NCBI GenBank assembly: GCA_003123965.1
Contig: NNSL01000228.1
Coordinates: forward strand, 1 to 6,067
Source: Balneolaceae bacterium SMO_bin1
GTDB lineage: Bacteria; Bacteroidota; Rhodothermia; Balneolales; Balneolaceae
Direction: 5' to 3'
DNA: 6,067 nt
Part shown: positions 1,664 through 2,221 of the stretch, one piece after another
How the letters are laid out: each line of letters opens with the position of its first letter
Position numbering within the stretch: the first letter of the stretch is position 1
Position numbers and translations under genes: made by a program
The notes under the pieces: model-generated
What the model saw: the letters and a program-made list of their open reading frames with translations, nothing else
The model's database searches: none
Told to the model about the DNA's origin: nothing

Positions 1664-2221
1664 ATGGCAAGCCAAGAACAACAATACTCCGCTGATTTTA
1701 AAGCCAAGGTTGCTTCCGAAGCACTCGATCAAAACAAACAGAATTTGGATCGGCTTTCGGAAAAATACGATGTGCCTGTTTCTGTAATTCTTACCTGGGC
1801 CACTAAATACGAAAAAGATCCCACGGTATTTGAGAAACCCAATACAGAAGACAAGCCCGCCAAGGCCGAATCAGAGGAAGATACGGTTGTAGATGTCGAA
1901 ATTGAAGACGAAAAGGTATCTTACAGCATCAGTTATGGTGCAATGGCAGATAATCTTGACTATAAAAAGCTGACATTTTGGAGCGTTTTAGGAGTAGTCT
2001 TTGTTATAATATTTGTGCAGTTGCTCTTCGAAATGTATGAAATGACTACACAAATAAATTTAGAGCAATTATCTGCCGAAAGTGAATATTACGAAGTGAC
2101 CGAACAAACTCGCGAAGCACGTGAAAGACTTAACAGCTTTGGAGTAGTTGATATTGAAGAGGGCACTTACAGAATTCCGATTGACAGCGTAATGAACGAT
2201 ATGGCTGTTGACGGTGAATAA
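1664..2221 (+). CDS. Membrane protein with transposase-type helix-turn-helix and oxidase-operon C-terminal domain
   Basis: A 185-residue protein of unknown function. Residues ~7-50 (YSADFKAKVASEAL ... LSEKYDVPVSVILTWATKY) match the helix-turn-helix pattern of IS3-type OrfA transposases (HTH_Tnp_1-like). Residues ~51-85 form an acidic, low-complexity linker. Residues ~103-123 are a single transmembrane helix preceded by Lys-Lys, predicting N-terminus inside and C-terminus outside. Residues 124-185 form a small charged domain ending in RLNSFGVVDIEEGTYRIPID, which resembles, from memory, short membrane proteins found beside SCO and caa3 oxidase genes in many bacteria (typically LxSYGWVD...RIPIxRAM). 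It lies 52 bases after actF and 9 before the SCO gene, so it is co-directional with the respiratory genes. It is not a transposase: there is no catalytic partner, and the remainder is unrelated. It could be a membrane-bound regulator, an assembly factor, or a small accessory subunit of ACIII or the oxidase. No Shine-Dalgarno sequence is seen; ATG 1664 is favoured because it keeps the whole helix-turn-helix. Confidence 0.85.
   Translation: MASQEQQYSADFKAKVASEALDQNKQNLDRLSEKYDVPVSVILTWATKYEKDPTVFEKPNTEDKPAKAESEEDTVVDVEIEDEKVSYSISYGAMADNLDYKKLTFWSVLGVVFVIIFVQLLFEMYEMTTQINLEQLSAESEYYEVTEQTREARERLNSFGVVDIEEGTYRIPIDSVMNDMAVDGE

Follow-up and report, generated by a model that had tools for sequence, protein, structure and literature searches.

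A transposase-type helix-turn-helix on the probable ActG subunit of a Balneolaceae respiratory locus

In alternative complex III (ACIII), subunit G, or ActG, is a small supernumerary protein that spans the membrane once. In the available part of the published account of Rhodothermus marinus (PMC5928083), it is the seventh product of the act cluster, has one predicted membrane span, was confirmed by peptide mass fingerprinting in the purified complex, and is absent from some act clusters. In Chloroflexus aurantiacus, according to the excerpt available (PMC3150298), one operon carries actABCDEFG and the other actG-SCO1-COX. Here, we analyse a gene at positions 1664-2221 of a 6,067-nucleotide stretch from Balneolaceae bacterium SMO_bin1 (contig NNSL01000228.1, forward strand), which is called the window below. 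Homology and gene order make it very probable that this gene is actG. Its N-terminus carries a helix-turn-helix (HTH) of the type found in OrfA transposase proteins, and no description of an HTH on ActG was found in the open-access text searched, as far as that text was available; no paper there pairs Balneolaceae with ACIII, and PMC8552683, in the part available, makes no mention of ActG. The HTH-bearing ActG is a variant, previously undescribed in the literature searched, of a known subunit, and is confined to one clade of a quick tree. A sequence-only reading of this DNA had known of no described function for the architecture; the C-terminal domain most likely belongs to a known subunit family, ActG.

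Identity of the gene between actF and SCO

The gene is an uninterrupted open reading frame (ORF) of 185 amino acids with an ATG start, and its parts are the following:

1664..2221, + strand: probable actG with N-terminal transposase-type HTH, ACIII subunit G, 185 amino acids (homologues, gene order, profile match)
1685..1819, + strand: HTH_Tnp_1-like three-helix domain, residues 8-52 (Pfam, AlphaFold model, profile comparison)
1778..1816, + strand: third, recognition-type helix, residues 39-51 (AlphaFold model; conserved in the closest relatives)
1820..1912, + strand: acidic variable linker, residues 53-83 (alignments)
1970..2032, + strand: sole transmembrane helix, residues 103-123 (hydropathy, AlphaFold model; Lys-Lys precedes it)
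2129..2209, + strand: C-terminal ActG signature, residues 156-182 (alignments, profile matches)

The acidic linker, the one membrane helix after Lys-Lys and the small C-terminal domain had all been seen in the sequence-only reading and are all present. Residues 103-123 form the single hydrophobic stretch (mean hydropathy 2.22), with Lys-Lys just before it. When some 5.8 billion proteins were searched, 196 of 247 candidates were found to match the window protein at E<=0.01, and the 120 listed among these matches cover 95-100% of the query; therefore, this is a real gene. A chance ORF is discounted in view of the 196 homologues, an assembly artefact in view of the 19 records with the gene, and an intact insertion sequence in view of the absence of OrfB. 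Several listed homologues are named 'transposase' or 'transposase-like protein' in their source databases, and the identification as ActG corrects this automatic name on a respiratory gene. A plasmid search for the window protein gave no match.

The identity as ActG follows from the position of the locus between ActF and SCO, the R. marinus ortholog, and a profile match to a known structure. As regards position, a scan limited to a single genome for each species turned up 19 loci with relatives (18 from Fodinibius, Aliifodinibius or Balneolaceae and one from a 'Bacteroidetes bacterium'), and the order ActF, this gene, SCO, CoxB, CoxA is kept in all 19. Over the class, 151 of 195 genomes match the family profile, a few of them through a transposase OrfA alone. 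The core set taken from them comprises 141 loci in 139 genomes, leaving out unlisted places, one 39-residue contig edge, and L076, which duplicates L035. Within it, ActF lies no more than 240 bases upstream in 137 loci and SCO no more than 180 bases downstream in 131; the exceptions include loci close to contig ends and L062-L064, which run straight to CoxB.

The part common to all fetched forms is the membrane helix together with the conserved C-terminal motif, FGVVDxExGxYRIPIDxxM, with which the C-terminal domain closes. The whole-protein profile gave no significant match in the Protein Data Bank (PDB). However, for the core profile (A5, 27 sequences) the best PDB match is chain 8k9e_G, 'ActG' (E 2.9e-4), in an entry that we take to be the structure from C. 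aurantiacus; another profile (A4) finds the same chain at E 0.02. This match is modest and confined to the motif region (residues 69-106 of 112). The second-best match of the core profile is a membrane helix of a V-ATPase (E 2.8e-3), which indicates that the membrane helix alone can give weak matches. In addition, the short form at L068, located between ActF and SCO, has the same sequence as P0176 of R. marinus; we infer that it would be the published ActG, for which the available part of the published account gives no locus tag.

It might be argued from the short match, the V-ATPase helix close behind it and the missing locus tag that the C-terminal part is an unrelated SCO or oxidase accessory protein, placed there by chance. 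This is very unlikely: the gene order agrees with the published actG of C. aurantiacus and with R. marinus, as do the position, the single span and the motif, and more distant members repeat the arrangement. Phylum-wide, 98 of the 296 genomes scanned match at E<=0.01, some of them weakly and some belonging to the class sample. Ten remote places beyond the 195-genome class sample (L246-L255) all have the motif, a short N-terminus and a position downstream of ActF, with a gap of about 0.8 kb in L253. SCO is next in eight of them, is about 1.7 kb off in L248, and was not found in L252. Two of the ten, L254 and L255, carry the motif in the form YGWV..IARIPIERAM and align with the core profile (hhalign 96.5%, E 9e-10). 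For Melioribacter roseus, the available part of the published account states that no actG homologue was found (PMC3534657). The remote forms suggest that sequence searches may have overlooked ActG in some act clusters, and that actG may be more widely spread than the published accounts state in their available parts.

The neighbouring genes in the window are as follows:

3..410, + strand: partial actE-type monohaem cytochrome c, truncated at the window start (ORF; a homologous stretch precedes ActF in relatives)
447..1187, + strand: N-terminal part of actF, before a frame break (ORF, relatives)
1369..1611, + strand: C-terminal part of actF, from the first start codon, in a different frame (ORF, relatives)
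2231..3067, + strand: SCO1/SenC family gene (PF02630, E 1.7e-10)
3054..4004, + strand: coxB fused to cytochrome c, caa3 type (Pfam COX2 plus Cytochrom_C)
4006..5748, + strand: coxA (sequence and conserved gene order)
5769..6065, + strand: coxC, truncated at the window end (sequence and conserved gene order)

The gene under study had been described as one intact gene between actF and the SCO gene. Its position and its intactness stand, but actF itself is not intact in the window: the frame breaks near the A7 run at 1168-1174, and two reading frames result (1168-1190). At the locus L001, the frame is undivided and runs for 395 residues from stop to stop. The break is either a sequencing error or real.

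The N-terminal slot and its kinship with transposases

The N-terminal domain has the tri-helical fold of HTH_Tnp_1 in the predicted model, with helices at residues 10-22, 28-35 and 39-51. The AlphaFold pLDDT block means are 73-82 over residues 11-50, as against 67.5 for the whole model (pTM 0.26). Foldseek with the whole model gave 35 matches at E<=10 and none at E<=0.001, mainly over residues 3-60, with the C-terminal part barely covered; the absence of strong matches is expected, because the model is multi-part and of low confidence.

Kinship with OrfA emerges from family comparison. Against the window protein alone, Pfam HTH_Tnp_1 (PF01527) scores 15.9 bits, under its cut-off of 24.1, and among the ActG relatives met in scanning 60 genomes, six are over this cut-off and at least four others under it. 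When residues 1-56 of the family were made into a profile (23 rows) and compared with a profile of 13 OrfA-type proteins, hhalign gave 97.4% and E 3.3e-11. These 13 are what remains of 18 HTH-profile matches in 33 loci after the removal of four ActG proteins and one kinase. The OrfA-like HTH of the sequence-only reading is borne out. As to its IS3 label, the best NCBIfam matches are IS66 TnpA (E 9.8e-4) and an IS3 transposase (E 0.009), and since both are far under cut-off, the matches fit either origin. What follows the gene in the window, as at 131 of the 141 loci, is SCO and no OrfB-type catalytic gene.

HTHs of this type were also met elsewhere. On contig C1 of genome G081 there are 12 matches to the HTH profile, most of them in a 112-residue frame, which are probably copies of one insertion sequence. 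The same type is also N-terminal in PAS histidine kinases (L087, 4274-6256, - strand; L256, 504-2531, + strand), and in 17 proteins a match to this kinase-type HTH N-terminus is accompanied by PAS and kinase domains. In the HTH-PAS kinases, a transposase-type HTH has been reused a second time. The act loci of two genomes with such kinases, G187 and G104, lie inside the HTH clade described below.

Among the 139 genomes, the N-terminus of ActG is the HTH in 59, short in 55 and FN3-like in 24, and one genome has both FN3-like and short copies, where the HTH and FN3 classes were assigned with profiles built from the family itself at a cut of 15 bits. The FN3-like form therefore occurs in 25 genomes (L062-L067, L069, L077-L080 and relatives). 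Its model is confident (pLDDT block means 86-97 over residues 11-110) and gives 190 Foldseek matches at E<=0.001, those shown being nearly all FN3 domains, while Pfam fn3, tried on four members, gave a weak match (E 0.04) to one. At L079 (5425-6366) and L147 (1551-2387), FN3-type copies occur with neither ActF nor SCO found in the fetched stretch.

The distribution was mapped on a quick tree of ActF and SCO, which covers 129 of the 141 loci (12 are without usable ActF or SCO) and carries long-branch warnings. All 59 HTH rows fall in one clade of 68 (SH-aLRT 99), alongside nine short ones; the named members of the clade are Balneolaceae. The HTH label needs five changes on the tree, compared with a shuffled mean of 42.6. 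Most simply, the HTH was gained once and lost about four times, and other mixes of five changes are possible. In L008, L035 and L076, all from one genome, the first residues and the core are kept in frame and the HTH is gone, an absence that looks recent, and P0014 has two HTH copies in tandem. ActG is thus a conserved core whose N-terminus is an evolutionary slot, holding an HTH, an FN3-like domain or a short stretch. The N-terminal part is no variable tail in the close group, where it is conserved; beyond the HTH clade it is absent or replaced.

Selection on the HTH and its possible role

Then, what could a transposase-type HTH do on a respiratory subunit? The HTH is under purifying selection. 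Its column entropy is 0.86 bits in alignment A1, similar to the membrane helix (0.88) and far from the linker (2.11); in the wider alignment A3 the values are 1.25, 1.06 and 2.41, respectively. In 10 close pairs, hand-picked by the analyst, dN/dS amounts to 0.250 in the linker, as against 0.133 in the HTH (helix three, 0.107) and 0.087 in the core. These values speak against the HTH being a near-neutral passenger, that is, a captured transposase fragment that folds and is tolerated with no specific role. Yet over 29 overlapping pairs dN/dS hardly differs between the HTH (0.198) and the linker (0.228; core 0.105), and the passenger could also account for the repeated loss with the core retained, for the many genomes with short or FN3-like N-termini, and for the in-frame absence in L008, L035 and L076. 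On balance, we regard the passenger as unlikely, though it deserves some weight.

The side of the membrane on which the HTH lies bears on any role. The sequence-only reading had placed it in the cytoplasm from the Lys-Lys before the helix. In the HTH class (n=60), positive-inside counts favour the N-terminus inside in 45 proteins, are equal in 13 and favour the opposite in two, so that a cytoplasmic N-terminus is probable for the HTH form, judging from the charges.

The fold appears to be retained and the DNA-reading face to be changed on average. Trp45 is kept in 61 of 61 ActG HTHs and in 13 of 13 OrfA proteins, whereas at position 46, 59 of the 61 carry A, I, V, M or T, and nine of the 13 carry Lys or Arg. 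The mean charge of the helix-three region is -1.84 in ActG HTHs and +1.54 in OrfA (p 5e-7), a p-value that overstates independence since the rows are related, and a comparison limited to the 13 OrfA proteins that the ActG profile could align. The whole domain differs in the same direction (-2.03 versus 0.46, p 0.003), as does the N-terminal arm (0.62 versus 2.54). A less basic helix three lowers the likelihood of DNA binding. Protein contact is favoured because the fold is kept while the DNA-reading face has changed on average, and also because an FN3-like domain fills the equivalent slot in relatives.

The alternative of the sequence-only reading was a membrane-bound regulator. In this form, ActG would be a membrane-tethered one-component regulator: with its HTH on an operator upstream of actA, it would tune act-cox transcription to the state of ACIII. 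In a survey of 33 upstream regions, 12 of 13 close HTH genomes share a palindrome, CTGnCAAnnTTnCAG, at a distance of 242-260 bases from actA (no more than 2 mismatches in 11 set positions), and it is missing at the corresponding place in the related HTH-less genome G187. Exact copies stand before actA in six of eight genomes searched, and in three of these eight (G025, G074, G117) that copy is unique in the genome. Helix three is nearly invariant, with Val39 and Ser40 in 121 of 121 and Leu43 in 120 of 121 closest proteins, a set made of the window protein and the 120 listed of the 196 matches, for which word-based retrieval favours conserved members. The tandem HTH of P0014 also suits a DNA binder.

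However, the pattern was derived from the same alignment and the genomes are related, so that the agreement is a description and provides no independent test. G070 (L264) has the HTH and no such site, and the site is absent in all 12 HTH genomes of other sub-clades, as it is in all seven HTH-less genomes of other sub-clades. Over the eight genomes there are 17 exact copies (0 to 4 each) as against 11 for the backward control, and the HTH-less G187 has four elsewhere in its genome. In other sub-clades, a AAAGTTAA-like element, seen by eye, occurs at a similar place in HTH genomes and in the HTH-less L271-L275, which argues that another factor binds there, and other regulators could bind the CTGnCAAnnTTnCAG site as well. 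Further upstream blocks (such as CTATTTAGAA...TTTAAATA) are conserved irrespective of the HTH. Together with the less basic helix three and the roughly four losses with the core retained, these observations weaken the regulator, and the palindrome keeps part of the case for it; we consider the regulator improbable. Its most specific version, in which an HTH dimer on the ActG of Fodinibius-type Balneolaceae would bind CTGnCAAnnTTnCAG and signal ACIII-caa3 assembly or turnover to the promoter of its own operon, is a speculation with a slim chance.

The 400 bases before actA (L257-L270, L271-L289) hold several conserved blocks, with the palindrome in one group. Rfam gave no match at the gathering threshold for the window and five act upstream loci, and none at E<=1 for one upstream stretch.

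We therefore return to protein contact, the second proposal of the sequence-only reading, which fits better in view of the ActG core, the purifying selection, the changed DNA-reading face and the slot. The C-terminal core, with the membrane helix, the stalk and the FGVVD..G.YRIPID..M motif, would sit in or beside the ACIII-caa3 supercomplex in the lineage of the window. To judge from the quick tree, an OrfA-type HTH may have joined the ActG N-terminus in the ancestor of one clade, probably on the cytoplasmic side. It has kept the core of its fold (Trp45, hydrophobic positions 37 and 42) and has lost the Lys/Arg at 46, as well as the net positive charge that its OrfA relatives typically have. 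It could now dock a protein, either ACIII or caa3 subunits, for assembly or stability, or a soluble partner. That the HTH is such a docking module is, in our estimation, evenly balanced; for the explanation as a whole, an ActG with a domesticated OrfA-type HTH used for docking, we lean slightly to its side.

Several points weigh against this explanation, besides the limits of the charge comparison given above. Protein contact is reached by elimination, and docking would be dispensable, given that the simplest history of the HTH includes about four losses. The overall dN/dS of the HTH comes close to that of the linker once the 29 pairs are taken. Some ActG proteins keep basic residues in helix three, position 47 being Arg in 16 of 61 and position 43 either Lys or Arg in 20 of 61; the helix-three charges overlap (-6 to +3 in ActG, -1 to +4 in OrfA); and the charge of region 37-52 is near neutral in the close group (mean -0.45 over the 121 proteins, 0 in the window). 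Hydrophobic residues are able to contact DNA. Positive-inside counts do not support an inside N-terminus in the short class (n=56; 18 for, 13 equal, 25 opposite) or in the FN3 class (n=25; 6, 7 and 12). Finally, ActG of R. marinus is without density in the map, according to the available part of the account (PMC5928083).

Nevertheless, the HTH looks like a transposase DNA-binding fold that selection has retained after its DNA-reading face changed. As the published R. marinus ActG, in the part of the account available, has neither density nor an assigned role, the slot offers a handle on the contacts at that side of ACIII.

Comparison with known systems

The closest described proteins are R. 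marinus ActG and chain 8k9e_G. As in the window, the R. marinus gene lies after actF and before SCO-cox, and both proteins have one membrane helix and a motif ending in IPID..M; they differ in being short forms of 130 and 112 amino acids, respectively, without the HTH, compared with 185 in the window. The HTH in turn resembles HTH_Tnp_1, the OrfA/TnpA proteins of IS3- and IS66-type elements and TnpE (2rn7), which likewise have three helices and the pattern YS.EFKAKVA.EAL and I..W. Unlike OrfA and TnpA, the window form has no OrfB partner, is fused to a membrane subunit, and belongs to a group whose recognition helix is on average not basic. The CENP-B and Brinker domains are eukaryotic DNA binders, whereas the HTH of ActG is membrane-borne and its DNA binding is doubtful. 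Regulators of the CadC/ToxR type have an HTH, one span and a C-terminal domain across the membrane. The layout of the HTH-bearing ActG is alike, but its HTH is of a different family, and its membrane part is the core of a respiratory subunit.
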